A DNA stretch of 64,000 nt. It comes from Chryseobacterium sp. POL2 (GTDB taxonomy: Bacteria; Bacteroidota; Bacteroidia; Flavobacteriales; Weeksellaceae). Shown here one piece after another: positions 11,490 to 38,612 of the stretch (positions are counted from its first letter, which is position 1; each line of letters begins with the position of its first letter). The notes below the pieces were generated by a model. It searched no databases. It worked only from the letters and a program-made list of their open reading frames with translations, and was not told the origin of the DNA. The position numbers and the translations under genes are program-made. The stretch lies in the NCBI RefSeq assembly GCF_011058315.1, contig NZ_CP049298.1, forward strand, positions 248,001-312,000, in the 5' to 3' direction.

Positions 11490-11540
11490 TAATTTGATTC
11501 AGAACTTTTATTCAAAAAGTGAAATCTAACAAAATAAGAA

Positions 11541-11667
11541 CTAATTCGCGCGCGAAGGATAGTAGCGGATATCCTTTTTGTAAGCTTGGGAAAGTATGGT
11601 ACAAAAAGATAGCAGCGGATAGCCTGACCCGAGTTGTGGGAAAAGCTTTGGCGAGGGACGCGCCCTA
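11541..11667. repeat. GC-rich REP-like intergenic repeat, copy 1
   Basis: This patch stands out from the AT-rich surroundings. It has two direct copies of GATAGyAGCGGATAkCC (11558-11574 and 11608-11624; 15 of 17 bases equal). These flank a 9-bp inverted repeat CTTTTTGTA/TACAAAAAG. It ends with GACCCG followed by GGGACGCGCCC at 11655-11665, which touches the stop codon of the minus-strand peptidase gene. A related patch lies at 39262-39420. Dispersed sequences of this look occur in Chryseobacterium-type genomes; that is recollection, not a search. Confidence 0.5.
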
Positions 11668-24848: not shown

Positions 24849-24866
24849 TAATAGTGGAGAATACGG
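24849..24866. repeat. Left attachment site (att repeat, displaced tRNA-Ala 3' tip)
   Basis: The sequence taatagtggagaatacgg is identical to 38533-38550. Its last 12 bases are the complement of the tRNA-Ala 3' end. This is the expected outcome when an element inserts in a tRNA gene and brings its own copy of the 3' end. Confidence 0.85.
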
Positions 24867-24980
24867 CTCTACTTTTTTAGATTTTATAAAACATACTAAT
24901 TTTCCAAAATGTTCTATTTTAAGTATTTGTATCTTGTTTTGTGTTTAAAAGTGTTGCAAATAAAAATAAAAGGTTTAATT

Positions 24981-25014
24981 TTACCAAACAAAAATAAACA
25001 ATTCTGTTTGGTAA
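24981..25014. promoter_or_regulatory. Perfect 10-bp inverted repeat next to the integrase start
   Basis: TTACCAAACA (24981-24990) and TGTTTGGTAA (25005-25014) are separated by 14 bases, and the right arm ends one base before the ATG at 25016. The same 9-mer TTACCAAAC recurs near the right end (38459) and, inverted, before the DnaA-like gene (31275, 31286). It may be an arm-type integrase site or an autoregulatory operator. The role is inferred. Confidence 0.55.
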
Positions 25015-25015
25015 T

Positions 25016-26407
25016 ATGGCAACTGTTTCCTACTTATATCGATCAACTAAACCAATAGGTTTTTTAACCGTTCGCGTTACTTTCAGATTGAAGTCTTCTG
25101 AGCCAATAAAAGGCTTTAAAGACGTTTATGAAATAAAGCGGAAAAACGGTCCCGTTATTTCGGAAATCACCAAAGAGAAAAATAGAGAAAGATATATCAA
25201 GGATGTGGTTCTTGTTGCTGCGACTAAAATTGAAGTCGAAAAACATTTTTATCTAAAACAATACAATTCAAAATCTAAAGACTCATCAATTCAAAAAAGG
25301 CAAGCTGAGATAAGTCAGAAAGAAAACGAGCTTCGAATATTTTTAACTGATGAAATTAGCAAATACCCACTAGAATCAATCAATACAGATTGGTTGAAGG
25401 CAACTGTGGGGCATTACTATTCACCCAAGGAGAAGATAGAAAATTCCGTCCCGCAAGATCTTTATAGTTTTTTACAATTTTATGCTGATGATAAGGCAAG
25501 AGAATTTGAAAAATACAATTCTTTACTTGAAGATAAGTCAATGCGTGAAAAGAACCCGATAACACTACGTAAGAAGCTAAAAACAATCCAAAAGAAAGTT
25601 TTAGAACTGCAAAATCTGGAAGGACGTCCGATATTGATAAGAGATGTTAATGTAAGTTTCAAAAATAGATATTTTGATTATTGCATGTCTATAAACTACG
25701 CTTATGATACTATTAAGAAAGATCTTGGATTCATTCGCTCTTGTTGCTACAAAGCCGAATCTCTTGGTATGGAAATAAGTAATGATGTCGCAGATGTGAA
25801 AATAAAAAATCTTACAAAATCAATAGAAGATGTTTATTTGTCATTTTCGCAATTAGACAAAATAAGAGATCTTGAATTAAAAACAGAAGACTTATACCTT
25901 GACAAATACAGAGATTGGTGCATAATATCTTGTTATTCTGGACAAAGAATATCTGATTTTTTAAGGTTTGAAAACAGTATGATAGAAAATGATATCATTT
26001 ATTTCATTCAAGAAAAAACGAAAAAGAAAATTGCGGTTCCACTTCATCCAGAAATTAAAAGAATACTAGAAAAGTATGATAATGATTTTCCTCCAAAAGT
26101 TAGTGATCAGAAATATAATAAATACGTAAAAGAAGTTTGTCGCCTAGCTGGTTTTACTCAGCTGGTAAGAGGTCGGAAAAAAATCAAAAATGAAGAAGAT
26201 CAATTTCGAAGTGTTACGAAGGATTATGAGTTCTGCGAGTTGGTTTCTGGACATACAGGAAGGCGGTCTTTTGCGACTAACTATTATGGAAAAATGCCAA
26301 CATCATACATACGTCTTATAACTGGACATTCTTCAGAAAAACAATTACTAGAATATTTGAAAAAAGCTGATGCTGATATTTCAAAAGACATTGCAAATTA
26401 TTTTTAA
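25016..26407 (+). CDS. int: Tyrosine recombinase / integrase
   Basis: A 463-residue protein. The N-terminal third is a basic arm-type DNA-binding/core-binding region and residues about 280-463 form the catalytic domain. The active-site set is complete: Arg311 in GQRISDF, His413 and Arg416 in GHTGRRSF, His438 in TGHSS and Tyr447 in LLEYLKK. It lies 150 bases inside the left att repeat and is surely the enzyme that inserted the element into tRNA-Ala. An inverted repeat directly before the ATG suggests self-regulation. Bacteroidota phage and transposon integrases share this layout. Confidence 0.93.
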   Translation: MATVSYLYRSTKPIGFLTVRVTFRLKSSEPIKGFKDVYEIKRKNGPVISEITKEKNRERYIKDVVLVAATKIEVEKHFYLKQYNSKSKDSSIQKRQAEISQKENELRIFLTDEISKYPLESINTDWLKATVGHYYSPKEKIENSVPQDLYSFLQFYADDKAREFEKYNSLLEDKSMREKNPITLRKKLKTIQKKVLELQNLEGRPILIRDVNVSFKNRYFDYCMSINYAYDTIKKDLGFIRSCCYKAESLGMEISNDVADVKIKNLTKSIEDVYLSFSQLDKIRDLELKTEDLYLDKYRDWCIISCYSGQRISDFLRFENSMIENDIIYFIQEKTKKKIAVPLHPEIKRILEKYDNDFPPKVSDQKYNKYVKEVCRLAGFTQLVRGRKKIKNEEDQFRSVTKDYEFCELVSGHTGRRSFATNYYGKMPTSYIRLITGHSSEKQLLEYLKKADADISKDIANYF

Positions 26408-26426
26408 TTTATAAATATTATTAATT

Positions 26427-26948
26427 ATGAGATCAACTACACTACAAAACAGTTACATTAAAGAAAAGGGATTGCCAGGATATGAACCAGAAATGGAGAT
26501 AGATATTTTGGTAAATATTGCAAAAAATGTTAATAGTAGCTTTTATGATGTAACGCAAGATAATAACGCAGGATTAGATATAGATAATATACTTAAAAGA
26601 GTTGAGAAGATAGCTGATAATCTATCTTATTTACTCGATTCTATTTATGATAAAAACATAATGTTTCACAAAGTGAATGAAGAAAAACATGATCTTAAAG
26701 GAAAATTTGAAACTGAAAAGTATTTAAAAAATTCGATGTATAGTTTGTTAGGAAAAAACAATTTACTCAATGAATATCATGATACACATAGGTATGCTTA
26801 TGCATGGGATAATCCACTGGCTTTTAGTAAAACAAACATGTATTATGAATATAGGAACAAACTTAATCAGTCAGACCGGCTAAAATTTGATGATTTATTA
26901 CGACGAGAGCGTGAAATAGAAGAAGATCACTTACAAAAAGTACAATAA
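26427..26948 (+). CDS. Element protein of unknown function (173 aa)
   Basis: A soluble, acidic and basic mixed protein with no signal peptide, membrane segment or motif that I recognise. The middle (about residues 45-95) looks helical, and the C-terminus (LLRREREIEEDHLQKVQ) is a charged helix. It starts 19 bases after the integrase stop and overlaps the next gene by one base, so it belongs to the int transcription unit. Confidence 0.65.
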   Translation: MRSTTLQNSYIKEKGLPGYEPEMEIDILVNIAKNVNSSFYDVTQDNNAGLDIDNILKRVEKIADNLSYLLDSIYDKNIMFHKVNEEKHDLKGKFETEKYLKNSMYSLLGKNNLLNEYHDTHRYAYAWDNPLAFSKTNMYYEYRNKLNQSDRLKFDDLLRREREIEEDHLQKVQ

Positions 26949-27142
26949 TGACAGCAGAACAAGCTTACCCAGCGATAAAAACTTTAATAGAGCAAGTGCA
27001 AGATTTGGGCGAACGTAAAAAATTAGAAAACTTGATACTAGGGGCAGTGGAAAGTAGAGAAAGAAAAAAAGCCCAAATTCTTGCCCAGCTCGATAAAAAG
27101 GAAAGATATCAAATAAAGTCTAAAACAAAGAAAAAGCTTTAG
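26948..27142 (+). CDS. Element small basic protein (64 aa)
   Basis: A 64-residue, lysine-rich, wholly helical-looking protein (QDLGERKKLENLI, ESRERKKAQILAQLDKKE) ending in a basic tail. Its ATG overlaps the preceding stop by one base. A nucleic-acid-binding or adaptor role is possible but not shown. Confidence 0.6.
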   Translation: MTAEQAYPAIKTLIEQVQDLGERKKLENLILGAVESRERKKAQILAQLDKKERYQIKSKTKKKL

Positions 27143-27186
27143 AACTGTATCAGAAACATCAATATAGAATTTAATTTATGTAATCT

Positions 27187-28161
27187 ATGGACTATAAAAA
27201 GTATTTTGAAAATGATATAAAAAGTATTCCTTTTTCAGATGTAATTGACAAAGAAGCCTTTTACCTAGAATATAGAGAAACCGACGTATTTCCAGACATT
27301 AATATTTTTCTATCAAAAGCTTTTGAAAACATTAGTGAAAACTTAATTAATGATGAAATTGTACTTCAAAAAGAAGCTGAGTTTCTTGCATTAATGAAAG
27401 ACAAAAGCAAAGCTGGCAAATTGAAGTTGTTAGAATACTCTAAGCCGTCTATAGCAACGACTAAAACATTTAAGGCTTTAGTACAAATACAAGAGGCTTA
27501 TGATTTTATTTTGGATTTAATTGTAAAGGATGAAGATTACGAAAATGACAAGTTAACATTAATTCACTTAATTAGAAGTATTTTATCTCCCTATAATCAA
27601 CAGGCTGTATTAAAAGCTATTATAGATGACAATAGTATAGCGACAAGAATTAAGTTAGGAGAGTTTGATAACAGTATGTCTAAGCTTGAAGCCGTACGAT
27701 TTGACGGATTAAAAAACAGAACTAAGAAGGATGATTTAGATTTTACTAAAAAAAGCTTTGAAAAGCTTAAGCGGGATCTGAGAATGTTAATTCCTATAGA
27801 GATAAATAATCTTGAAAAGCCACATAGAGTCGAGCTTGATGAGAGAGTTTTAAAGTTTTTTTATAATGCTGAATTACCAGCAAAAATATTTACTGAGTGG
27901 AAATTGTTTTTTGGAAAAAAACACGCTTTAACACATTTTTCTTTTTTATTTTGGAAAATGGTAGATGATAATTTCATTGAAGATGAAAATGGGAAAGAAA
28001 GACCTAGAAAAACGCACAGGAATTATATTGATTTTGTTAATGAAATTTTTGACGAAGATGTAATAAATAGGAATCAATTAAAACGACCAAATGAGCCCGG
28101 ATTAATGGATAATAATATTAGAATAATAAAATATAAAGAAGTAAAAGATTCTTTTATTTAG
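27187..28161 (+). CDS. Element protein of unknown function (324 aa)
   Basis: A 324-residue soluble protein without recognisable motif. It has a helical N-terminal half and a C-terminal half containing ILSPYNQQAVLKAII, FTEWKLFFGKKHALTHFSFLFW and ENGKERPRKTHRNYIDFVNE. The last part looks like a conserved block of Bacteroidota mobile-element proteins, but I cannot name a family. It closes the int unit and is followed at once by a strong terminator. Position between int and the control region is typical for cargo or regulatory genes. Confidence 0.65.
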   Translation: MDYKKYFENDIKSIPFSDVIDKEAFYLEYRETDVFPDINIFLSKAFENISENLINDEIVLQKEAEFLALMKDKSKAGKLKLLEYSKPSIATTKTFKALVQIQEAYDFILDLIVKDEDYENDKLTLIHLIRSILSPYNQQAVLKAIIDDNSIATRIKLGEFDNSMSKLEAVRFDGLKNRTKKDDLDFTKKSFEKLKRDLRMLIPIEINNLEKPHRVELDERVLKFFYNAELPAKIFTEWKLFFGKKHALTHFSFLFWKMVDDNFIEDENGKERPRKTHRNYIDFVNEIFDEDVINRNQLKRPNEPGLMDNNIRIIKYKEVKDSFI

Positions 28162-28196
28162 AGAGACTGTCCTTTTAAGACAGTCTCTTTTTTTTG
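28162..28196 (+). terminator. Terminator of the integrase unit
   Basis: The stem AGAGACTGTC/GACAGTCTCT (28162-28171 and 28179-28188) is perfect over 10 bp, with a 7-base loop and eight T. It begins right at the stop of the 324-residue gene. Confidence 0.9.
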
Positions 28197-28201
28197 AACA
28201 C

Positions 28202-28248
28202 AAAATAACACGTAGCATGTCTATTGATAACACGCTACGTGTTATTTT
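28202..28248. promoter_or_regulatory. Overlapping palindromes, probable operator or replication control site
   Basis: A 15-bp perfect inverted repeat AAAATAACACGTAGC/GCTACGTGTTATTTT has a 17-base spacer. Inside the spacer a second ATAACACG pairs with the same right arm across 3 bases (28227-28234 with 28238-28245). Thus there are three ATAACACG half-sites, two direct and one inverted. The right arm ends 18 bases before a TACTTTTG -7 box at 28267. This suits an operator for the HTH protein at 28301. An origin or attenuating structure is also possible. Confidence 0.55.
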
Positions 28249-28266
28249 TTTTGATTTTCGGTGGTC

Positions 28267-28274
28267 TACTTTTG
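28267..28274 (+). promoter_or_regulatory. -7 box (TACTTTTG) for the element's HTH/replication genes
   Basis: TACTTTTG fits TAnnTTTG and lies 26 bases before the ATG at 28301. The -33 region falls over the end of the large palindrome and lacks a clean TTG, which would be consistent with a regulated promoter. Confidence 0.4.
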
Positions 28275-28300
28275 TTAAAACATTTTAAAACCGAAAAGTA

Positions 28301-28561
28301 ATGGATAAAACGACATTAGTAATGGTACCAGAAAGTGAATATAAAAATCTACTTCAAAAGGTGGATACAATATTCGATTCCATCGTAAAAAAAACACAAG
28401 AACCCATCTCCGAACATATTTCAAAAAATGAAGTTCTTTTTATGTTAGGGATTTCACGCGGAACATATTGGCGCTGGGTAAAAGACGGCAAACTTAAAGA
28501 ATATGGCATCGGCGCAAAAAGATACTGCAAACGCAGCCAAATCCAAGAACTTTTAAAATAA
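28301..28561 (+). CDS. Excisionase-like helix-turn-helix protein
   Basis: An 86-residue protein. Residues about 43-85 match the HTH_17 / MerR-like excisionase domain: ISKNEVLFMLGISRGTYWRW, then VKDGKLKEYGIGAKRYCKRS, then IQELL. Such proteins bend DNA for excision or regulate element genes. The start follows a palindrome-containing promoter region. It may be Xis or a transcription regulator; the sequence does not decide. Confidence 0.8.
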   Translation: MDKTTLVMVPESEYKNLLQKVDTIFDSIVKKTQEPISEHISKNEVLFMLGISRGTYWRWVKDGKLKEYGIGAKRYCKRSQIQELLK

Positions 28562-28619
28562 AAAAAAGCCTAATCAGTGAAGGGAGACAGGCTTTAATTT
28601 AAATCTTAAAAAAAATGAT

Positions 28620-28853
28620 ATGGACAAATATACTACTGTTCCGGTTCAGGAGCAAAAATTACGGCAATTCTTTATCAGACACCAGCGGAATGGTGCCACT
28701 ATGCTAATGGCAGCTAAGGCGACAGGCATCGAGCGCGCGAGCGTATGCCGTTATATCGCGGTTTTCGAAAGAAAAAATATTGTCAATTTCCACGGATTCC
28801 ATTTGTGCCCTATTTCGGGTCATCGGGCTGGTTTTTACTCGATAAAAAAGTGA
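28620..28853 (+). CDS. Small winged-helix/HTH protein (77 aa)
   Basis: A 77-residue protein with a helix-turn-helix pattern in GATMLMAAKATGIERASVCR followed by YIAVFERKNIV and a wing-like ISGHRAGFYSI. Similar small HTH proteins are common in Bacteroidota prophages just upstream of replication genes. It is probably DNA binding. It ends 32 bases before the ATG of the replication-type gene. Confidence 0.65.
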   Translation: MDKYTTVPVQEQKLRQFFIRHQRNGATMLMAAKATGIERASVCRYIAVFERKNIVNFHGFHLCPISGHRAGFYSIKK

Positions 28854-28885
28854 AATATAACATCAACATAAATCAGCGCGCCATA

Positions 28886-29845
28886 ATGGAAAATAGTGCC
28901 AATATTGATATTGTGGATGCTGCCATACTTGACTTTATGGTTTCTTTTTCTGCTTCGCCTAAAATTGATAAAATCATAGAAAGCAACACTGTTTTCTTTT
29001 GGTTTTCACATGACGCGATTATTAGCCAATTACCTATGCTTAAGCTTAAAAAAGATAGTGTTTACAAGCGTCTAATCAAGCTTTGCGAAAAAGGGTTTTT
29101 AATAAAATTTCCAGCAAGTCAAAAACTAAACCGATCTTATTACGCTATCTCCGAAAAATCATTTGCGTTAAGCTTCGAACCTTCGGAAAATATTCCGAAG
29201 GGGTACGGAAATAAATCCGAAGGACCTTCGGAAAATAATCCGAACGATAATAATATAAGTAATAATCTAAATAAAATAAATACTACTACTTACTATGAGC
29301 CCGAAAAAGCAAAAATTTATTTAAAAAATAATCAACAAGTCCAAATGGATAGATTGATGATGCAGCATAAGCTTTCCAAAGATCAACTAGACTCTAAAAT
29401 TGATGAATTTGTGAATTATGCTGAAAGTGTAAATAAAAATAAATGGATTGATAATTCTGATCTCGCAAGACATTTTGAATCTTGGTTATCCAAAAGACCG
29501 ATTGTCATTAATAATTACAAGAACTGGACGGAAAAAGAATTTTGTGAGGAGGTTGAAAAAGTTGGCGGAAAAAACAGAAAAGAATATCTGCGAAAATTTA
29601 TTGATGTCTTCAAACAAACTGGCGAAAATGGCAAAATGAGGTTTCAGAATCGTACAGCATGGGACACAGCAACAGAACTCAAATTGTTTATTCAAAAAGA
29701 GTTAAATAGTGTACATATTGATTTTCCAGCTAGACAAAAAGACAAGGTTTCGGCTAGGACGATACTCGCACAGCGACTTGCAGAAAATACTAAGCGAAAT
29801 AAAGAAAACGGTAATACTACAATAGATATAGAAATTGTCGAATGA
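28886..29845 (+). CDS. Phage-type replication protein with winged helix (319 aa)
   Basis: The ATG at 28886 was chosen; an upstream in-frame start at 28745 would lie inside the preceding gene. The N-terminal 110 residues look like a winged helix (WFSHDAIISQLPML, KKDSVYKRLIKLCEKGFL). A Ser/Asn/Pro-rich linker follows (about residues 115-145). The C-terminal part, FVNYAESVNKNKWID then LARHFESWLSKRP, resembles the helicase-loader/DnaD-like end of phage O-type replication initiators. It probably starts element replication. The 3' end overlaps the next gene by four bases. Confidence 0.65.
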   Translation: MENSANIDIVDAAILDFMVSFSASPKIDKIIESNTVFFWFSHDAIISQLPMLKLKKDSVYKRLIKLCEKGFLIKFPASQKLNRSYYAISEKSFALSFEPSENIPKGYGNKSEGPSENNPNDNNISNNLNKINTTTYYEPEKAKIYLKNNQQVQMDRLMMQHKLSKDQLDSKIDEFVNYAESVNKNKWIDNSDLARHFESWLSKRPIVINNYKNWTEKEFCEEVEKVGGKNRKEYLRKFIDVFKQTGENGKMRFQNRTAWDTATELKLFIQKELNSVHIDFPARQKDKVSARTILAQRLAENTKRNKENGNTTIDIEIVE

Positions 29846-30177
29846 AAAATTTTAAACGTAAAATAAAAAAAAGCTATTCGTGGAATTATTTCAAAAAAAA
29901 GTATGGGATAAGCCTTTTTGAACTACATACAGAAAGATTATCTAATTTGATACAAATGTCCAGACTTTTTCCTGCTTTAGAATACTTGGAAGACTATGAA
30001 ATAATTAATCGTAATAATGTAATTGATATTCTTTTAACTGAGTCGGCTCTAATTTATGTTGTTTATAAAATTAACGAAACTAATTTTTATGAGAAAAGCT
30101 CTCGCGTTAATATAAGAAAGTTGATAGAAGAGTTAAAATTTAAATGTGAAATAAATCAAGATTTTTCTTTGAATTGA
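29842..30177 (+). CDS. Element protein of unknown function (111 aa)
   Basis: A 111-residue basic protein without recognisable motif; the N-terminus (MKNFKRKIKKSYSW) is strongly basic. It overlaps the upstream replication-type gene by ATGA and lies 4 bases before the DUF5681 gene, so it is translated from the same message. Confidence 0.6.
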   Translation: MKNFKRKIKKSYSWNYFKKKYGISLFELHTERLSNLIQMSRLFPALEYLEDYEIINRNNVIDILLTESALIYVVYKINETNFYEKSSRVNIRKLIEELKFKCEINQDFSLN

Positions 30178-30181
30178 AATT

Positions 30182-30589
30182 ATGAAAGATCCAAGACAGA
30201 ATAACATTGCCGGGAAAGGATTCGATAAGAACCCTCAAAACATTAATAGGAAAGGAAGACCTAGAAAAACCTATACCGTAATCAATGATATATTTAAAGA
30301 CAAAGGCATTCAGCCTGTCTCTAAGTCGGAATACATTGAATTGTTCAGTAGGATAATGAATGCTACAGAAGCCGAAATAAATACGCTTAAAAGTGATAAA
30401 AACACACCGTTAGCTCTAAGAATAATCTTAGCAGAATTAAGCTCAAAAAACAAAAATAAAATTATTCGCGATCTACGAAATTTTATGTTTGGCCAATCTC
30501 AGCAAGAAATTATTCAAACCGTTAAAGCGCGCGTAATCACGCAAGAAGAAATTAAAAGATACAAGCGAATACTAGAAGATGAAAACTAA
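30182..30589 (+). CDS. DUF5681-type protein, small-terminase-like
   Basis: A 135-residue protein. The N-terminus GKGFDKNPQNINRKGRPRK matches the DUF5681 pattern (G-x-F-x-x-N-P-x-N-x-x-G-R-P-K). This occurs at the start of phage small-terminase-like proteins. The C-terminal half is helical (IKRYKRILEDEN). It may recognise DNA for packaging or replication. No large terminase gene follows. Confidence 0.6.
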   Translation: MKDPRQNNIAGKGFDKNPQNINRKGRPRKTYTVINDIFKDKGIQPVSKSEYIELFSRIMNATEAEINTLKSDKNTPLALRIILAELSSKNKNKIIRDLRNFMFGQSQQEIIQTVKARVITQEEIKRYKRILEDEN

Positions 30590-30644
30590 AAACAACGAGA
30601 AAACAACGAAACATAACATAATTATTAATCAAAATTTCAAAAAA

Positions 30645-31193
30645 ATGGAAACAACTATTCAAAAAAGTGCAATTAGTGAAACACGAGTAAACAAAACTAC
30701 TGAAGATGTCCTTTTAGACATTATTCTGGATCGAATGGAAGAAGATCTAATGATTGCTATCGAAAGAATGAGAGATTGCAGTGAAAAGGATTCTTTATGG
30801 CATGAAATGAAAGAAGAAGCCGCTAAGTTAACTGATGATCTTTTCATTGCGCAAAAGAATCGCGAGACTTTCAAACAATTACTAATTCAAAGAGCTAAAA
30901 ATGAATATGGCTTAGATGTGAAAGAGATTACTTTCGAAAGAAGTGTTATTTATGATAGCGAAGAAGATTGTTTAGCTGGCGTAAATGGATCGGTTATGTA
31001 CATTGATTCATTAAATGATCTTCCCATGATGTCACCGCAAGATATGATTTGTGAAATAGAACATCTTTTAAAAGATGGTTACATCGTGCGAGTTAAAGGA
31101 GAAGATTTAACACTACGATCATTGGAAGACATTGATAAAATATTCAAGCCACAATTTCCAGAATTACAGAGGGTAGCATTCGCAGATTTATAA
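30645..31193 (+). CDS. Element protein of unknown function (182 aa)
   Basis: The ATG at 30645 sits behind an A-rich leader typical of strong starts here. The alternative ATG at 30579 would overlap the DUF5681 gene by 11 bases and add 22 low-complexity residues. The protein is acidic and helical (MEEDLMIAIERMRDCSEKDS, EEAAKLTDDLFIAQKN), followed by a mixed C-terminal part. I do not recognise the family. Confidence 0.6.
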   Translation: METTIQKSAISETRVNKTTEDVLLDIILDRMEEDLMIAIERMRDCSEKDSLWHEMKEEAAKLTDDLFIAQKNRETFKQLLIQRAKNEYGLDVKEITFERSVIYDSEEDCLAGVNGSVMYIDSLNDLPMMSPQDMICEIEHLLKDGYIVRVKGEDLTLRSLEDIDKIFKPQFPELQRVAFADL

Positions 31194-31274
31194 AGTTCGA
31201 ATCCTTATTACTCTATTATAGAATTTATTAAAGTATTAAAAATCAAGACTTTAAAAAATAATTTAACCTAAGTT

Positions 31275-31294
31275 GTTTGGTAAAGGTTTGGTAA
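31275..31294 (+). promoter_or_regulatory. Two direct GTTTGGTAA 9-mers before the DnaA-like gene
   Basis: GTTTGGTAA occurs at 31275-31283 and again at 31286-31294, one helical turn apart, ending 18 bases before the ATG at 31313. The reverse complement forms the inverted repeat at the integrase start and lies near the right end of the element. Confidence 0.5.
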
Positions 31295-31312
31295 TGTGAA
31301 AACTCATTAAAA

Positions 31313-31897
31313 ATGAAGATATCCAACTATGAAATTTTAGCGAATGTACTAAAAGTTAGCAGAATTTCTTTAAATGATTTTTTTGGAAAGACAAAGACGC
31401 AAAGAATTGTTTTTGCACGCGCATTATTTTCTAATGCTGCAAATGATAACGGATCTTCATTTGGTGAAATTGCCAAGTTTACCAAACAGCACAGGTCAAC
31501 TTCCCATTATCATGTACAAAACTATGCTGTTTTCTTTAGATTCTATACTGATTTTAAAGAAAAAGCGGTGCAATTAAACAAACAATTATTAACCATAAAA
31601 CAAATATTTGAAATGAGCGAGAAAATCGAAAAAGACGGGAAAGTCTATTATGAAGAATCAGCAGTTGCAAACGCAATTGGAACCGCGGTAAAAACTGCAC
31701 TAGAAGCGGTTTCCGTTGGATTAGAAAAAAAAGAAGAAACGGATCAAGATGATTTGGAAGACAAAGAGCCAAGTTCAGGCGTAAAAGAGTATCTAAAAGA
31801 TGCTTCAGGCGAAAGCCTTGGAGGTCGTGGGCTTGACTTTGATCGAGCAAAACAAAACTTGATGGCGAAGGGGCCGCTTGGAGGAAAAACAATTTAA
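31313..31897 (+). CDS. Stand-alone DnaA domain-IV-like DNA-binding protein
   Basis: A 194-residue protein. Residues about 1-85 line up with the DnaA C-terminal DNA-binding domain: a first helix with VLKVSRISLNDFFGKTKTQR, then IVFARALFSNAA, then SFGEIAKFTKQHRSTSHYHV, where HRSTSHYHV stands for DnaA DHTTVLHA. The AAA+ part is missing. The C-terminal half is acidic and linker-like and ends in a Gly-rich stretch. It could be an element replication or regulatory protein binding 9-mer boxes. The match is by eye. Confidence 0.55.
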   Translation: MKISNYEILANVLKVSRISLNDFFGKTKTQRIVFARALFSNAANDNGSSFGEIAKFTKQHRSTSHYHVQNYAVFFRFYTDFKEKAVQLNKQLLTIKQIFEMSEKIEKDGKVYYEESAVANAIGTAVKTALEAVSVGLEKKEETDQDDLEDKEPSSGVKEYLKDASGESLGGRGLDFDRAKQNLMAKGPLGGKTI

Positions 31898-31912
31898 TAT
31901 TCACCAAAACCG

Positions 31913-32545
31913 ATGAATAATAGAAAATTAAAACAAAGATCGAGATTCAATAAAGTTGCGGCTATGGTTGCGTTGTATGAATTGAGAGCTGAAAAAGAGT
32001 CTGTTTATAGATACTTATTCAATGATTCTAATCCTTTTCTTTCGGAAATAGAATTTGGCTTTATTGACCGTTGTCAAACACGAAATATGATTCATGTAGC
32101 GTTTTATAATGCTCCAATACTTCAAGATTTTGAAATAGCAAAAACAAAAGATGAAGCAACAAACTACCTAATAGAGCTGGATAATCATTTTAAAGAGGTT
32201 AGCCATCATTCAGAAATTAATGATTTCTGTTTTACTCTATTTTGCAAATATGTGATTCGTGGGGAACTTCCAATTTTTACTAGTAAATCAATTATGTTAA
32301 TCGAAATTTTTAATTTTTTCGCAAAACATGACTATGATATAAAAATTGTAAATGAGAAAGTTGAGCAAAATCCACTTTTAAAGAAAATGTTAAAAGATTT
32401 TTTGCCGATGTCAGTATTGAGACATGTCTTTTTAGAAATAGAAAATAAAATTCAAGAAGCTGAAAGTAATGGACAAAATTTGAAAGAAAAGTTAAGCGAT
32501 ATTATTTCAAATTTTACAGATAGAATTTTTCAAAAACTTAACTAA
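31913..32545 (+). CDS. Protein of unknown function upstream of the tape measure (210 aa)
   Basis: A 210-residue soluble, mostly helical protein with no motif I recognise. It sits 31 bases before the tape-measure gene, the place where tailed phages usually encode tail-assembly chaperones. I looked for a programmed frameshift near its end and saw no convincing slippery site. The chaperone role is a positional guess only. Confidence 0.6.
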   Translation: MNNRKLKQRSRFNKVAAMVALYELRAEKESVYRYLFNDSNPFLSEIEFGFIDRCQTRNMIHVAFYNAPILQDFEIAKTKDEATNYLIELDNHFKEVSHHSEINDFCFTLFCKYVIRGELPIFTSKSIMLIEIFNFFAKHDYDIKIVNEKVEQNPLLKKMLKDFLPMSVLRHVFLEIENKIQEAESNGQNLKEKLSDIISNFTDRIFQKLN

Positions 32546-32575
32546 AAAACTAATAACCAAGAAAACTTAATTAAA

Positions 32576-35500
32576 ATGGCAGGATTAGAAGATGGAATAA
32601 AATTTAAGATAGGAGCCGATCACAGCGAGTTTATGAAGGCTGTAGAAGAGAGTGGTATAAGACTTAAGGGATTTACTCAATTTGCACGTGAAGCAGGCGA
32701 AAACATTGATAGTGCTTTTGTTGAAGCTTTAAAAACTATTGAAGCACAAAAAACGGCATTAGCCGAGTTGCAGAAAAAATATGATGATCTTCAAAAAACA
32801 CCAACAAAAATTGGAAATGATGAAGAAGTAGCGGCATTTACACAAGAGATTAATCGACTCAAGGAAGAAATTGATTTGTATAAAAATAAAATCAATGAAA
32901 TGAATCTTGTTTTAGAGTCATTCAGCAATAAAAATGTCAATCTAACGCAGGATCTTGAAGAAGTCCGCGAAAAAATAGTTAAAACCACATCTGAAAACTA
33001 CACTATTGAAGCTCTTGGCGTAACAAAAGAAAATATAGTTATCCAAAAGCAATATATTAAAGAACTGGAGTCACAATTAAAAGAACTTCAGAAAACTATT
33101 GACGACATGGCACCTAGTAAGGCTAAACTTACTGTTATGGGAGAAGCGTCTTCGATAGCTAAAGAAATTGAATTAGAAAAAAAGGCTTTACTAGAATTAG
33201 AGGAAGCTTTACGTAATACGGAAAAAGAGCATATTTCTTTACGTGAAAAATTATCGACTGTGCGTTCAGAAATGGAAGCGTTATCAGCAGATAACAAAAG
33301 AAATACAGCTGAATATAATGAGCTTAAAGAAAAGGCTCAAGAATATTCAGCGCAATTAAAACAAGTTGCTGACGATTTAAAGCCAAACATTGATAATCAT
33401 GATAATCTTCGCGAAAAACTTTCTTCTGTAAAAACAGAAATGGAAGCTTTAATGCTTTCCGGTAAAGGACAATCCGAAGAATATGAAGAATTGAAGGGAA
33501 AGGCCCAAGAGTATTCTCAAATGATTGTCCAAGTCGCTAAAGATATTAAGCCGCTCGAAGAAAAAAACACCACATTACAATCCAAGCTACGTGCTGTAAA
33601 AGAAGAAATGCTTCAATTGGCTGCTGCTGGCGAAAAAGATTCAGCGCAATATAACGAATTGCGAAAGCAAGCTATCGCGTACCAAAGTGAGCTTCAACAG
33701 ATGAATAAAGAATTAAAGTCTTTATCAGGAAGCACTAGCATCACCGCGATGGTTAATTCATTAGGATTATTGTCTGGAGGACTTTCTGCCGCCAATGGAT
33801 TTATGGCAATGTTTGCAGGTAATAATGAAAACCTAGACAAAATTATGGTTCGTTTGCAGGCTACAATGTCGGCGGCGATAGGTATTCAGCAAATCCAAAA
33901 TAGTTTGGCCAAAGAATCTGGCGTTATACAGTCCGTTGTAGCAGTGCAGACTTTAGCAAAGGCGAAAGCCGAAGCATTAGCAACAAAAAACACAATCGGC
34001 GCTACAATAGCGCAAAGAGCTTTTAATCTAGTCGCAAAAGCTAATCCTTATGTTTTATTGGCTGCTGGTTTGGTTACTGTTGTAGGCGCGTTGGTTATGT
34101 TTTCTGGTAAGACTAAGAAAGCGGCAGAAGATCAAGAAAAGTTAAATAAAGCCACAGCAGACGGTGCGGCCGAAAACATTGTTAAGTATAAGCAATTACA
34201 AACCGCTTGGAATGCACTTGGTGGTGATTTGAAGAAGCAACAAAAATACATTGAAGAAAATAAAGATAAGTTCCATGAGCTTGGTAGAGAAGTTAATAAT
34301 GTTAATGAAGCTGAAAAATTCTTTAATACTAATTCAAATGATTTTATAGAATCTTTAAAGTTACGAGCTGAGGCAGCAGCTCACGCCCAAATCGCGGTTG
34401 AAAAATATAAAGAAGCGATTTTAGCCGATAAAGAAATAGAACAATTCGACAAAGATTGGGAAAACGCTGGTTTTTTTGGTAAAGTATGGCTGGGGGCAAA
34501 AGCTTCATATAATAGAATGGATGTTGCTGTAGGCGGTAAAGGTGGTGACAAATCAAGGGTAGAAGCTCAAAAAGAACTTGAGAAAGAACTTGAACTCAAA
34601 AAAAGAGCTGATGAACTAGGAAAAAAAGCTGCTAATCCATACAATGGAGGAAGTGGGAAAACACCCAAAACCAAAACGGCTAAAAAGGCGGCTGACGAGT
34701 TTCTTCCTCCTGGTTCTGTTGCTGAAATTCAGAAAAGATTATCGGAAATTGATAAAGCACTTTCAAAAGCAACTGGCGACAAACAAATTGCTGATCTAAA
34801 AACGAAGCGTATTGCTTTAGCTAAAGAATTGGCAGAAGCTGAAAAGAAAATCCAAATACAGAGCTTACAACAGCAATTTGACGAATCTCAAAAGCTTTGG
34901 ACTGATTATTATTCAACGATCGAAAGCCTTGGAAAACCAACAGCTGACAAAATTTATGGTGATCTACTCGCAAATGATTCTTCCCAATTTGAGCAATTGC
35001 AAAAGAAACAGCAAGAACTTTTGGCGAAAGCCAACACGGCCGATAAAGATGGTAAATCTTTAATCACTGATGAAGAAAAAGAGGTTTTAAGCGAGGTTTC
35101 CCAAATCATTAATGAGATGTTGGGCAAGCAGTCACAACTGGACCAATTTAAGCAAAATGTCGCTGACACTCTTTCTACGATGGCCACAGAAGCGGAAAAA
35201 ATTAAGTACTTAGAAGATATTCAAAAAACAGCTTCAAAAGACAGCGGTGAGTATGCTTATGTTGTGGAGCAGGAACGCGCAATACAAGACCAACTTCGCC
35301 AACAATACCAGCAATTCCTTAATGACCATAGAAGCTTTGAAGAGCAGAAAGCGATAATTACTGAAAGGTTCGCAAAAATTCGTGAGCAGATCGCAAGTGA
35401 TGAAACTTTGTCGGCTTCTCAAAAAAGTGATGCTATGGCGAAAGCAGGGCAAGCAGAAGCAGACGAGTTTTCTCGTGCTTTTATGGATAGTATTTCAAAC

Positions 35501-36925
35501 AATCCAGCATTCAGACAGGCTTTTGCAAACATGGAACATCAAGCTACTTCAAGCCTAGAAGCTTTACGTGGAAAATTAATTAAAAAATTAGAAGATTTAA
35601 AAGCATCTGGAAAAGGAACGATAGAAGCTATTGAACAACTTAAAAACTCTATTGGAAGCATCAACGATATGTTGTCTTCCAGAAATCCTTTTGTTGATTT
35701 AAAAAAGCTAATAAAAGACCTAGGAGATGAGAGTTTAACTACATCTCAAAAGATTGCCTTAATAAATGAAGCTAATCAGAAAGTGCAATCTAATATTGGA
35801 TTCTTAAAAGGAGCCGTTAATGACATCCAAGGTATTGCAAAAGATTTAGGATTAAGCTTAGATAATGCGTTTGGAGATGCTTTAGAAAAGATAGGAGGGG
35901 TTTTAGATGGATTAGACCAGATGTCAGATGGTTTAACAGATATGGCGAAAGGCTTTGCAACAGGAAATCCAATCCAAATGGTTACTGGAGGGATCAAAGC
36001 GATTGGTGGTATTGTAAAAGCTGTGGGTTCTCTTTTTAACAATGACCGAAAAAAAGAAAGAAACATTAAAAAATGGGCAAATGAAGTCGCAAATTTAAAA
36101 GAACAATATGAGCAACTCCAGCACGCTATCAATAAAGCATTGGGAGAAGATGTCTATAAAAACCAACTAGATCAAGTTAAAAACCTTCAACAGCAACAAG
36201 CGAAATTGCGACAAATGATTAGCGAGGAACGCAGCAAGAAAGATACTGATGACGGTAAAATTGCTGATTGGGAAAACCAGATCAGACAAATGGATAGAAT
36301 GATTGATGATATACGCGATAATATCATTAAAGATGTTCTTCAAACCGATGTTAAGCAACTAGCTTCTGGACTTGCTGATGCATTAGTAGATGCTTTTGAA
36401 AAAGGCGAAGATGCGGCAAAGTCACTAGATAAAGTTGCAAATGATGTGTTCAAAAACATGGTGAAGCACGCGCTTCAAATGAGAATGCAAGATGGTTTAC
36501 AAGATGTCTTAAATCAAGTCTTAGCGGCTGCAGGTTTTGATAAGAACGGAAACGGATCATTTGCAGGATTCTCACCAGAGCAGATAGCCTATTACAAAAA
36601 TCTCATTGCGCAGGTTGGATTACAACAACAAGGCTTTCTTGATGCTTACAGCTCATTATTTGCCGATGGTATTTCAGCTTCAAATCTTGAAGGCGCAATA
36701 AAAGGCGTAAGTGAAGAAACGGCTTCTATCATAGCAGGTCAAATGAACGCTATCAGAATTATGCAAGCGGAAGCCTTACAAGGGCAACAAAGTGGATTCG
36801 ACTTAATGCAACAACAACTTAACCAACTCGTAATGATCGAATTTAACACGAGATATTTACGATTGATTTACGCCGCAATGGGAAAGTCAAATAACGATGA
36901 TTTGAGAGCTAACGGATTAATTTAA
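32576..36925 (+). CDS. Phage tail tape-measure protein
   Basis: A 1449-residue protein. The N-terminus (GIKFKIGADHSEFMKAVEES) is typical of Bacteroidota tape measures. Residues about 50-380 are coiled coil. Within these, three tandem 56-residue repeats begin near residues 222, 278 and 334 (LREKLSTVRSEMEAL, LREKLSSVKTEMEAL, LQSKLRAVKEEMLQL). Hydrophobic segments lie at about 390-410 and 490-512, and a Gly-rich hydrophobic stretch at about 1090-1170. The C-terminal part (KWANEVANLKEQYEQLQHAI, then VKQLASGLADALVDAFEKGE) is also conserved in the family. With the lambda rule of about 1.5 angstrom per residue it would specify a tail near 200 nm. Confidence 0.88.
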   Translation: MAGLEDGIKFKIGADHSEFMKAVEESGIRLKGFTQFAREAGENIDSAFVEALKTIEAQKTALAELQKKYDDLQKTPTKIGNDEEVAAFTQEINRLKEEIDLYKNKINEMNLVLESFSNKNVNLTQDLEEVREKIVKTTSENYTIEALGVTKENIVIQKQYIKELESQLKELQKTIDDMAPSKAKLTVMGEASSIAKEIELEKKALLELEEALRNTEKEHISLREKLSTVRSEMEALSADNKRNTAEYNELKEKAQEYSAQLKQVADDLKPNIDNHDNLREKLSSVKTEMEALMLSGKGQSEEYEELKGKAQEYSQMIVQVAKDIKPLEEKNTTLQSKLRAVKEEMLQLAAAGEKDSAQYNELRKQAIAYQSELQQMNKELKSLSGSTSITAMVNSLGLLSGGLSAANGFMAMFAGNNENLDKIMVRLQATMSAAIGIQQIQNSLAKESGVIQSVVAVQTLAKAKAEALATKNTIGATIAQRAFNLVAKANPYVLLAAGLVTVVGALVMFSGKTKKAAEDQEKLNKATADGAAENIVKYKQLQTAWNALGGDLKKQQKYIEENKDKFHELGREVNNVNEAEKFFNTNSNDFIESLKLRAEAAAHAQIAVEKYKEAILADKEIEQFDKDWENAGFFGKVWLGAKASYNRMDVAVGGKGGDKSRVEAQKELEKELELKKRADELGKKAANPYNGGSGKTPKTKTAKKAADEFLPPGSVAEIQKRLSEIDKALSKATGDKQIADLKTKRIALAKELAEAEKKIQIQSLQQQFDESQKLWTDYYSTIESLGKPTADKIYGDLLANDSSQFEQLQKKQQELLAKANTADKDGKSLITDEEKEVLSEVSQIINEMLGKQSQLDQFKQNVADTLSTMATEAEKIKYLEDIQKTASKDSGEYAYVVEQERAIQDQLRQQYQQFLNDHRSFEEQKAIITERFAKIREQIASDETLSASQKSDAMAKAGQAEADEFSRAFMDSISNNPAFRQAFANMEHQATSSLEALRGKLIKKLEDLKASGKGTIEAIEQLKNSIGSINDMLSSRNPFVDLKKLIKDLGDESLTTSQKIALINEANQKVQSNIGFLKGAVNDIQGIAKDLGLSLDNAFGDALEKIGGVLDGLDQMSDGLTDMAKGFATGNPIQMVTGGIKAIGGIVKAVGSLFNNDRKKERNIKKWANEVANLKEQYEQLQHAINKALGEDVYKNQLDQVKNLQQQQAKLRQMISEERSKKDTDDGKIADWENQIRQMDRMIDDIRDNIIKDVLQTDVKQLASGLADALVDAFEKGEDAAKSLDKVANDVFKNMVKHALQMRMQDGLQDVLNQVLAAAGFDKNGNGSFAGFSPEQIAYYKNLIAQVGLQQQGFLDAYSSLFADGISASNLEGAIKGVSEETASIIAGQMNAIRIMQAEALQGQQSGFDLMQQQLNQLVMIEFNTRYLRLIYAAMGKSNNDDLRANGLI

Positions 36926-36938
36926 AAATTTTATACAG

Positions 36939-37418
36939 ATGGGATTTACATCAGATTTTGATTTGGAAGAGTTTAAGCGATATAGCGCGCAGTATGTAGA
37001 TAATGTTTCAGCGGTTGTGTACTACGCTTTGGAATCCGCAATGATTGAGCTGGTTAACTATGCTAAAATGACTAATACCTACATAGATCAGACAAATAAT
37101 TTACGTTCGTCAATAGGTTATGTTATTTACCAAGATGGAGAGTTAATAAAATCAAGTTTCTCAGCTTCTGGTTCGGGAGCGGGTGGCGATGGAAAAAAGG
37201 GGGTTGAAACAGGATTAGCTTTTGCTAAACGTGTTGCTGAAGAAGATGGGGATAAAGGACTTGTATGTGTTCTAGTAGCAGGTATGGAGTATGCAAAGTA
37301 TGTTGAGAGTAAAAATCTAGACGTTTTGACGGGTGCAACTCTACAAGCTGATAATGTGTTTCAGGCAGAATGGAATAACATTAAAGATGCATTGAAGAAA
37401 ATAAAATTCAATAAATAA
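36939..37418 (+). CDS. HK97-gp10-like tail/connector protein candidate
   Basis: A 159-residue protein. An N-terminal helical part (YYALESAMIELVNYAKM) is followed by NNLRSSIGYVIYQDGELIKS and VAGMEYAKYVESKNLDVLTG. The last resembles the YAxYVE-GT block of HK97 gp10-like tail-completion proteins. It lies 13 bases after the tape measure. In many phages gp10-like genes lie upstream of the tape measure, so order differs here. The family call is tentative. Confidence 0.45.
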   Translation: MGFTSDFDLEEFKRYSAQYVDNVSAVVYYALESAMIELVNYAKMTNTYIDQTNNLRSSIGYVIYQDGELIKSSFSASGSGAGGDGKKGVETGLAFAKRVAEEDGDKGLVCVLVAGMEYAKYVESKNLDVLTGATLQADNVFQAEWNNIKDALKKIKFNK

Positions 37419-37438
37419 TAATTAGTAAATTTTAAAAA

Positions 37439-38026
37439 ATGGAAAACGAGACAAAAAAAGTAGAATTTGAAAGAATTATAATTTCTTTCGATGAGGTGAG
37501 TTTTAATGAGGAAATAAATGTCCTGGAAGAAATTCTAAGCGAATGGAATACTGCAATAATTGAATTTAAAAATAAATTCAATTTAAAATTAAGCAGCAAG
37601 GAAACACAAGACATATTCTTGCAAAAATTAAATACTAAAGATTTTATACAAAAGTTATTTAGTGAAATAAAATCACCCTACTTACAGAAATTAGCTCAAG
37701 ATGAAGTTGGTTCGTACTTAAAAAAAATGTTTAGTGAGTTAGAAGTTTATAAATGCTTTAAAAGTGAAAAATTTATTTATAAAGATGATGGGTTTTTACT
37801 ATCTGAAAAGTATATTGAAGCGGTGAAAAAAAAGCATGAGAAAAGTATCAATTCAGCACAAGGAAAAGAATTTTACGATCTTCATGAGCAATCTTATCAA
37901 GCTATTAATAAGATGCTGGAAATTGCAAAAATAAAAGGAATTAACATGTCTTACTTAGCGCTTTTCGATATCAACCCTAAAACTTTATCATTCGAGAAAC
38001 GAAGTTTAGCTTATGATAGGTTGTAA
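37439..38026 (+). CDS. Element protein of unknown function (195 aa)
   Basis: The last clear gene of the element, a 195-residue charged helical protein with no recognised motif. It lies 20 bases after the gp10-like gene, and a strong hairpin terminator begins at its stop. Confidence 0.6.
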   Translation: MENETKKVEFERIIISFDEVSFNEEINVLEEILSEWNTAIIEFKNKFNLKLSSKETQDIFLQKLNTKDFIQKLFSEIKSPYLQKLAQDEVGSYLKKMFSELEVYKCFKSEKFIYKDDGFLLSEKYIEAVKKKHEKSINSAQGKEFYDLHEQSYQAINKMLEIAKIKGINMSYLALFDINPKTLSFEKRSLAYDRL

Positions 38027-38028
38027 CT

Positions 38029-38075
38029 AAACAAAATCAGTGAATGTTTTTTTATCATTCACTGATTTTGTTTTA
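38029..38075 (+). terminator. Strong terminator at the end of the element's gene run
   Basis: An 18-bp perfect stem AAACAAAATCAGTGAATG/CATTCACTGATTTTGTTT (38029-38046 and 38056-38073) encloses a 9-base T-rich loop. It starts two bases after the stop of the 195-residue gene. Confidence 0.85.
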
Positions 38076-38231
38076 TGGATTAAAAACTGATAGTAACAAT
38101 GTTAATCGCAGGTCAAAATATAGAAGTTTTGATGCTGACAGAGAACGTTTCAATATAGAATTTAGTTGCTTACTTAGTGACTATATCCGCAAATTTCTTG
38201 AAAAAGGAGTAATAAAAGTTTATTAAATTTA

Positions 38232-38252
38232 AATACGGTTTCAAACCGTATT
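38232..38252. repeat. 21-bp palindrome near the right end
   Basis: AATACGGTTT and AAACCGTATT are perfect 10-base arms around a single C. An imperfect repeat follows directly (AAAACCAAAGTG at 38255-38266, CACTTTTGGTTT at 38276-38287). They may bind Xis, integrase or a host factor. Confidence 0.5.
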
Positions 38253-38458
38253 ATAAAACCAAAGTGGTTTGAAATCACTTTTGGTTTCAAAAGTTCGAAA
38301 ATAGCACTTTTAAAATCAATAAAGAGGGAAAGGGGGAAACTACAATCCTACTTTCGGTCTCTACAGGCAAATTTTAGAGTAAAAAGACTGAAAATTATTT
38401 AGAAATATTATAAATTGCGTTCAATAGAATCAAAAGCAATCTAAAAGAATCTATTTTT

Positions 38459-38478
38459 TTACCAAACAAAAACCAAAC
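38459..38478 (+). promoter_or_regulatory. Putative right arm-type sites
   Basis: TTACCAAAC (38459-38467) and AACCAAAC (38471-38478) are direct repeats spaced about 11-12 bases apart. They mirror the TTACCAAAC inverted repeat at the left end. Proposed as arm-type integrase or regulator sites by symmetry only. Confidence 0.4.
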
Positions 38479-38532
38479 ATTCTATATTTTGTTTTGGTTT
38501 TTACTTCCTTATAATCAGTATGTTGCAATTTA

Positions 38533-38550
38533 TAATAGTGGAGAATACGG
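38533..38550. repeat. Right attachment site (att repeat within tRNA-Ala 3' end)
   Basis: Identical to 24849-24866. It covers the tRNA-Ala discriminator base, the 3' acceptor strand and part of the T arm, plus six bases beyond. Confidence 0.85.
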
Positions 38551-38612
38551 GATTCGAACCCGTGACCTTTTGACTGCCAGTCAAACGCGCTAGCCAACTG
38601 CGCCAATCCCCC
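38539..38612 (-). tRNA. tRNA-Ala (GGC anticodon)
   Basis: The minus strand folds as a 74-base tRNA without an encoded CCA. The acceptor is GGGGGAT with ATTCTCC, which contains the G3:U70 pair that identifies tRNA-Ala. The D arm is GCGC/GCGC. The anticodon arm is TTTGA-CTGGCAG-TCAAA, so the anticodon is GGC (codon GCC). The T arm includes GGTTCGAATCC. The integrated element abuts its 3' end. Confidence 0.95.

Follow-up and report, generated by a model that had tools for sequence, protein, structure and literature searches.

A probable phage satellite in Chryseobacterium sp. POL2 that carries its own tail tape measure gene

We analyzed a 64,000-nucleotide stretch of the genome of Chryseobacterium sp. 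POL2 (contig NZ_CP049298.1, positions 248,001 to 312,000 of the forward strand; hereafter the window, whose own coordinates are used throughout), which holds a 13.7-kb integrated element (24849-38550; hereafter the POL2 element) that is probably a phage satellite. It is seated at the 3' end of a tRNA-Ala gene and bounded by an 18-bp attachment (att) repeat, the left copy of which (24849-24866, + strand) equals the right copy (38533-38550, + strand) at 18/18 bases. The right copy overlaps the 3' end of the target gene, annotated as tRNA-Ala(ggc) (38538-38612, - strand), and the 18-bp repeat is nested in a 26-bp repeat with 92% identity. All element genes are open frames on the + strand. A preliminary description of this DNA had noted a tyrosine integrase, the flanking 18-bp repeat, open frames and a tape measure protein of 1449 residues, and each of these was recovered in our analysis. 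Genome G001, the only further member of the genus in the searched set, has the tRNA gene and lacks the element: homology to the right flank of the window ends at base 38538, the alignment to the left flank reaches approximately 24742, and host genes come after the tRNA gene, none of the open reading frames (ORFs) of at least 80 aa there being an integrase. G001 does not represent a clean empty site, with other host genes lying between the tRNA gene and the left flank; head genes at the same position in a close relative, which the preliminary description had associated with simple deletion, were absent from G001.

The gene at 32576-36925 (+ strand) encodes the tail tape measure protein (TMP), with matches to phrog_21917 (E 3e-140) and phrog_9959, 'tail length tape measure protein' (E 6e-49); scans of viral contigs with its C-terminus gave no useful match. 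A TMP search of the bacterial family, that of Chryseobacterium (Weeksellaceae), returned matches in 43/316 genomes, and the surroundings of 39 TMP places were annotated, together with the window and three phage records, using iterative profile hidden Markov models (HMMs). TMP places of further genomes (e.g., G034, G331, G333, and G156) and a second G249 piece (L107) lay outside this comparison. The 40 TMP loci, two of them from G248, comprised 26 prophages with portal, capsid, or large terminase genes, 10 compact elements without these, and 4 unassigned loci, located at contig ends (G024, G062, and G249) or carrying a different TMP (G140). The compact elements are the POL2 element and those of G303 (Chryseobacterium salipaludis), G269 (Chryseobacterium sp. 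FP211-J200), G293, G318, G284, G233, G136, G085, and G174, with no head genes within the stretch examined in any of them. An integrase was detected by HMM in 9/10, that of G233 being read by eye at the expected place, and att-like direct repeats were found at the 3' ends of tRNA or transfer-messenger RNA (tmRNA) genes in 8/10, implying spans of 13.5 to 24.4 kb. The repeats lie at tRNA-Ala in the POL2 element (18 bp), tRNA-Arg in G293 (23 bp), tRNA-Glu in G303 (13 bp) and G318 (15 bp), tRNA-Asn in G233, where the repeat is a second tRNA copy, and tmRNA in G136 (17 bp), G269, and G174 (15 bp each). The comparison with relatives proposed in the preliminary description therefore yielded nine further elements with a TMP and an integrase and without head genes, at several tRNA or tmRNA sites.

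Directly following the TMP gene is that of a 159-aa protein (36939-37418, + strand), previously labeled gp10-like, a label that could be refined to tail completion protein of the gpZ/HK97 gp10/80-alpha gp51 type. Its AlphaFold model (mean predicted local distance difference test score, pLDDT, of 78.5) matched chain P of PDB entry 9mu2, the neck of the Staphylococcus aureus pathogenicity island SaPI1, with a VIA-align Z of 8.7 and a root-mean-square deviation of 3.5 over 100/109 residues, while the next row reached Z 4.5. Best Z values of 7 to 8 are common in VIA-align without true kinship, and 8.7 is just above this range; the match was trusted because of the gap to the next row, the coverage, and the place that the gene occupies in phages. 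In a Porphyromonas phage record, the relative of this gene lies between head closure and tail completion genes and is annotated 'neck protein'. The 9mu2 match was not shown by Foldseek against the PDB (among the matches listed), nor by PDB sequence search or sequence profiles, and similarity to Pfam HK97-gp10_like was weak (0.015). According to excerpts of PMC11661146, 9mu2 shows DNA, tail completion protein, and TMP within the SaPI1 neck, and residues 7-115 of gp51 were built; because chain P covers this same range, we took it to be gp51. The same excerpts describe gp51 as capping the DNA end and forming a sheet with three TMP N-termini, and treat HK97 gp10 and lambda gpZ as its equivalents. 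Judged from its model, the 159-aa protein resembles in fold the tail completion protein of SaPI1/80-alpha. It was detected by HMM in the POL2, G303, and G269 elements, while the gene that follows the TMP gene in phages is found instead in G318 (by BLAST) and in G233 and G136 (by eye).

Upstream of the TMP gene, a 135-aa protein (30182-30589, + strand) had been described as a DUF5681 protein. The family likeness stands, and the label was amended by synteny, which indicates that this is probably the terminase small subunit (TerS). The protein is 54% identical to one encoded in the prophage of G286 (Epilithonimonas xixisoli) 5' of HNH-like, terminase-like, and SPP1 portal (PF05133, 3e-40) genes, and in IMG/VR, the gene for the terminase large subunit (TerL) lies downstream on the same strand in 31 of the 53 loci with relatives of this protein, several contigs being near copies. 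A PDB sequence search with TerS gave no useful match. TerS homologues were detected by HMM in 4/10 elements (POL2, G303, G269, and G293), and a 102-aa protein of G318 resembles them by eye.

For the 194-aa protein encoded at 31313-31897 (+ strand), the earlier label of DnaA-like DNA-binding protein was not upheld. Its DnaA-C-like N-terminus matches PF08299 weakly (E 1e-4, below the cut-off), while its C-terminus carries a motif common with phage scaffolds, and DnaA-like DNA binding was consequently rejected as its main function. Excerpts of PMC12409344 report that SaPI CpmB and Rcm compete with helper scaffolds through shared motifs; given this precedent and its own scaffold-like C-terminus, the 194-aa protein is a candidate capsid-remodeling factor. 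Scans of viral contigs with this protein gave no useful match. A scaffold HMM, built from 12 seeds out of 26 phage scaffold C-termini and run over 5034 ORFs (474 of them in the satellites), ranked 13 scaffolds first, followed by four ORFs from compact elements (G284, 2.6e-6; G085, 0.001; G318, 0.03; G293, 0.15). A second C-terminal pattern, consisting of a [VI]xxY[LI] stretch followed by LGGK[TE][ILV] or close variants and defined post hoc from the sequences, so that its specificity is descriptive, occurs in 6/5034 ORFs. These are the scaffolds of the G286 prophage and the Porphyromonas phage, and one ORF each in the POL2, G303, G269, and G293 elements, all six falling within one ten-row TMP clade. 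In IMG/VR, a further G286-like scaffold ends in LGGKAV, and three more distant ones do not.

The last long gene of the element encodes a 195-aa protein (o195; 37439-38026, + strand) that is typical of the compact elements. It was detected by HMM in 6/10 (POL2, G303, G269, G293, G233, and G085) and by eye in two more, G284 and G318, whose rows (17% and 13% identical to the POL2 protein) were aligned by eye and match the later profile by construction. By comparison, o195 is found beside the TMP in 0/26 head-bearing prophages. The eight-row profile matched 13/316 family genomes, namely, those of the eight elements together with G272 (at a contig end) and G291 (1e-13), where the matches are strong, and G183, G286, and G317, where they are weak. 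Among 395 genomes from the order, a partly overlapping set, four matched, all weakly except that of the window. The o195 counts leave out the weak matches in G286, G183, and G479 and weak second matches in G269 and G317. The o195 model has a pLDDT of 83, and neither Foldseek against the PDB and viral models nor a PDB sequence search gave a significant match. In G291, the o195 relative, scoring E 6e-13 at this locus, lies in a small element beside a tmRNA-like tag (L139-L140, G291:C1, approximately 2694481-2699503) that also encodes an integrase and HTH proteins and has no TMP, possibly a minimal cousin of the compact elements. The weak o195-like proteins of G286 (L132, G286:C2, 112319-112951, E 5e-5) and G183 (L134, G183:C3, 92360-93001, E 8e-8) lie in prophages that appear Mu-like by eye, and the weak match in G479 adjoins an integrase.

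Searches of Pfam and PHROGs with 16 element proteins, and of NCBIfam with 10 of these, gave no match worth keeping for head and packaging functions (capsid, portal, or large terminase), for a tail tube or tail tip, or for lysis, and HMMs built from the head and tail genes of relatives likewise revealed none of these functions, in agreement with the preliminary description, which had seen no capsid, portal, large terminase, or lysis genes. One helix-turn-helix (HTH) protein showed a stray match to a PHROG terminase small subunit (E 0.07). The profile searches of uncharacterized proteins that the same description had advised were run for six proteins against TerL, portal, capsid, MuF, tail tube, chaperone, scaffold, neck, and o195 profiles, and returned probabilities of at most 2.1% (single sequences, low sensitivity). 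The 210-aa protein encoded directly 5' of the TMP gene (31913-32545, + strand) has no homologue in the other 319 family genomes searched and was provisionally set aside as a tail chaperone, its single-sequence profile showing no similarity to the putative chaperones of family phages. With tail tube, chaperone, and tip genes all unrecognized, it is unlikely that a tail is served by this TMP on its own, and one could imagine that particles are made wholly by a helper while the TMP serves elsewhere, for instance as a membrane channel or in a tail-like particle of the element itself. This seems scarcely credible to us, given that no sheath, secretion, or receptor-binding gene was recognized in the element, that we know of no TMP function without a tube, and that the partner of the TMP is a neck plug.

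The presence of homologues of the TMP, completion protein, and TerS in complete prophages of the family and in phage records is also what would be expected of a decayed siphophage, in which deletion of the head, tube, and tip genes had left the TMP and its neighbor by chance. Several observations argue against such decay and make it quite improbable. Ten elements, located at several att sites, are reduced in a similar way, and the order of their TerS, completion protein, o195, and TMP genes varies; the o195 family was not seen beside the TMP in the prophages; and the frames are intact and accompanied by dedicated integrase and replication-type genes. Moreover, the TMPs of the G136 and G174 elements, which are 80% identical, have a ratio of nonsynonymous to synonymous substitution rates (dN/dS) of 0.23 at a dS of 0.63, and the TMP is under purifying selection in this pair, the one satellite pair close enough for good measurement; the remaining pairs are near or beyond silent-site saturation. 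Between the G269 element and the G286 prophage, identity is 84% for TerS, 70% for the TMP over 1326 columns, and 40% for the completion protein, and because these values are unequal, the genes appear to have been swapped one at a time and not to be the residue of a single deletion. Of the two possibilities raised in the preliminary description, a satellite or a siphophage remnant, the satellite with its own TMP is thus favored and the remnant is not.

A quick TMP tree provided further evidence on the exchange of these genes. It comprised 41 rows, 10 from satellites and 31 from phages or prophages (including three phage records), with G140 left out. The satellite label requires five changes on this tree, four of them forced by well-supported branches, and it is more clustered than in shuffles (2/500 as low). 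Satellites therefore appear to keep their TMP and occasionally to renew it from phages or hand it to phages. Outside the TMP, TerS, and neck genes, the G269 element and the G286 prophage also share a 77-bp stretch with 80% identity (L039, 17595-17666; L197, 1763-1839), which was weighed as a packaging site; the G286 copy coincides in part with the end of a coding frame.

A TMP maintained by selection need not be built into satellite particles, and the TMP and its partner could instead be decoys that poison helper tail assembly as an interference or defense device. Satellites frequently interfere with helper assembly, and the TMP is a known target of defenses that block tail assembly, as described in excerpts for Tab and for Rta of PLE11, one of the phage-inducible chromosomal island-like elements (PLEs) of Vibrio (PMC12987554); Tai, too, is reported in an excerpted source to block tail assembly. 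We nevertheless consider decoys unlikely. A fragment would suffice for a blocker, while the satellite TMP is of full length and like phage TMPs throughout, as in the G269-G286 comparison. Furthermore, a DNA-end plug or post-TMP gene accompanies the TMP in some elements, which fits building rather than poisoning, and in the PLE precedent, the TMP is incorporated.

Based on the data presented above, we consider it likely, with some room for doubt, that the POL2 element is a phage satellite that builds chimeric virions, in which the head and tail shell come from the helper, and the terminase specificity, scaffold signal, plug, and TMP from the element itself. The nine relatives of similar plan suggest a family that makes hybrid particles from helper parts. 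After integration at tRNA-Ala through its tyrosine integrase, the element would excise and replicate when a related siphophage is active, the nearest whole phage type being the G286 prophage of E. xixisoli, and its late genes would then enter the assembly line of the helper. There, the TerS of the element may steer the helper large terminase onto satellite DNA, and the 194-aa protein may redirect capsid assembly by offering the helper capsid protein a C-terminal end like that of a scaffold. It is the terminase role, induction, packaging, capsid change, and chimeric tails that we infer in this scheme. The element would also impose its own tail length on the helper; the median TMP length is 1431 aa in satellites and 1478 aa in phages (Mann-Whitney p 0.02, relatedness uncorrected). 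Shorter tails as the main purpose were discarded, given that satellite TMPs are merely slightly below phage TMPs in length. The benefit is likely to be resistance to tail- or entry-directed defenses aimed at the helper TMP, and possibly also the exclusion of helper genomes. Because some exclusion and tail-assembly defenses act on the TMP, a satellite could conceivably enter, or be assembled in, cells that block its helper, although we regard this last idea as tentative and somewhat doubtful.

A number of points weigh against this interpretation. The element is known here from sequence and models, with no particle or helper seen, and its own genome has no related SPP1-type portal or cap_E capsid gene, for which reason a resident helper was discarded. 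The completion protein occurs in only 3/10 elements, so the pairing of TMP and plug is not universal, and a tail chaperone was not found, unlike in PLEs. The TerS assignment was made by synteny alone, with no terminase model matching the 135-aa protein. As for the scaffold signal, 13/26 phage scaffolds have other C-termini, the second pattern carries the post hoc character noted above, a looser form of it (the bare terminal motif) also matches an unrelated 64-aa ORF of the window, the 194-aa protein is otherwise not scaffold-like in profile comparison, and the G136 and G174 elements showed no C-terminus of the scaffold type. Regarding the class of compact elements as a whole, the TerL HMM missed several evident prophages, so that the case for TerL being absent leans on gene sizes and, above all, on the HMMs for portal and capsid. 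Short att repeats are those of G303, G269, G174, and G318, the repeat search covered eight elements, no tRNA gene being found at G085 or G284, and the 24-kb span implied for G174 may include other DNA.

The remaining genes of the POL2 element encode functions in integration, regulation, and replication, or proteins without a family. The tyrosine integrase (463 aa; 25016-26407, + strand; PF00589, E 1e-7; phrog_1, E 1e-23) has homologues that are the first gene in most other compact elements. It is followed on the + strand by genes for a 173-aa protein (26427-26948) with no family match below E 0.09, a 64-aa protein (26948-27142) searched against Pfam, PHROGs, and NCBIfam, and a 324-aa protein (27187-28161) that shows no resemblance to head proteins in profile comparison and whose place, between integrase and HTH, is taken by proteins of 239-274 aa in four relatives. 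Two stem-loops followed by T runs lie at 28160-28248, between the gene for the 324-aa protein and that for an HTH_17 excisionase/AlpA-like protein (86 aa; 28301-28561, + strand; PF12728, E 1.6e-8), and perhaps set the integrase operon off from the remaining genes. Homologues of the HTH_17 protein hold the equivalent place in relatives, and the gene is followed by that of a small winged-HTH-like protein (77 aa; 28620-28853, + strand) with weak HTH matches and a homologue in G284. A replication-type protein (DUF7833; 28886-29845, + strand; PF25200, E 9e-6), of 319 aa from its likely start, the longest ORF starting at 28745, has a homologue in G293, and a role in replication is suggested by its position and winged-helix-like N-terminus; a RepZn replication-type gene was detected by HMM in 8/10 elements, while the POL2 and G293 elements carry the DUF7833-like one. 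Genes for a 111-aa protein (29842-30177, + strand; searched against Pfam and PHROGs) and a 204-aa protein (30579-31193, + strand; searched against Pfam, PHROGs, and NCBIfam, and by head and tail profile comparison) flank the TerS gene, and a perfect 18-bp inverted repeat directly 3' of the o195 gene (38029-38073, + strand) is a possible terminator.

No master regulator was identified and no divergent repressor recognized in the POL2 element. In G233 (L068) and G136 (L091), an opposite-strand cluster past the o195/TMP end encodes several uncharacterized proteins and a small one that by eye resembles XRE repressors; these clusters are likely a regulator and cargo region, which is absent from the POL2 element. 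PADLOC found no defense family among the nine element proteins tested, and defense cargo was discarded accordingly. Elsewhere in the window, at 11539-11633, there is a Flavo-1 small RNA (Rfam RF01705).

The preliminary description had stated that satellites do not usually bring a tape measure, which requires amendment in light of the PLEs. Excerpts of PMC12987554 place the first demonstration of satellite TMPs in Vibrio PLEs, in 2026, and report that the PLE TMP enters the virion, that tails are 10 nm shorter, and that loss of tmp cuts transduction by 96-99.9%; they call PLEs the first satellite family manipulating tail assembly and leave the benefit open. Capsid remodeling by PLEs is reported in excerpts of PMC10945586. 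The POL2 element resembles PLEs in encoding a TMP with neighboring partner genes and, as proposed here, in taking the capsid and most of the tail from the helper. In PLEs of Vibrio cholerae, however, the TMP is paired with a chaperone gene (in all PLEs) and in some with a baseplate hub, and the helper is a contractile phage (PMC12987554, excerpts), whereas in elements of the POL2 type, which are connected with siphophages of Bacteroidota, the TMP is accompanied by a completion protein or post-TMP gene, by C-termini of the scaffold type, and by a probable TerS. By this comparison of gene sets, not of TMP sequences, they look like a family separate from PLEs, in Bacteroidota, with a different partner set.

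The element also resembles SaPIs and other phage-inducible chromosomal islands (PICIs) in its size, tRNA att site, integrase, AlpA-like HTH protein, replication-type gene (weakly DUF7833), and probable TerS of its own, and possibly in redirecting capsids by scaffold mimicry, as do CpmB and Rcm in the excerpted report (PMC12409344). Excerpts of PMC6092414 define PICIs by the absence of phage structural genes and by att sites never occupied by prophages, and give a typical size of 12-15 kb, with integrase, replication module, and master regulator in conserved order. At 13.7 kb between its att repeats, the element falls in this range, but it differs in carrying a structural TMP and a neck (completion) protein, and no lysis gene was recognized in it. 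Some capsid-forming PICIs (cf-PICIs) likewise carry predicted tmp genes (PMC12987554, excerpts), but cf-PICIs have genes of their own for capsid, portal, and the two terminase subunits (PMC10690885, excerpts), and neither library nor custom HMMs found a capsid, portal, or TerL gene in the POL2 element. The G286 prophage and RAP44-type Riemerella siphophages have a TMP and completion protein homologous to those of the element, and the G286 prophage is further alike in its TerS and LGGK-type scaffold C-terminus; in contrast to the element, these phages possess genes for TerL, portal, capsid, tail tube, and tail tip, and o195 was not found beside their TMP. Among open-licence papers, no description of satellites of this type in Bacteroidota was found by title or abstract.

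If this interpretation is true, elements of the POL2 type would constitute a second lineage with its own TMP, which would make tail reprogramming a repeated satellite strategy. Their partner genes hint at what has to be matched, which in the POL2 element would be the pairing of a DNA-end plug with the TMP, and helper and satellite types can be named, the G286 phage with the G269 and POL2 elements. The finding would also account for tail-only 'prophage remnants' that annotation could call decayed.

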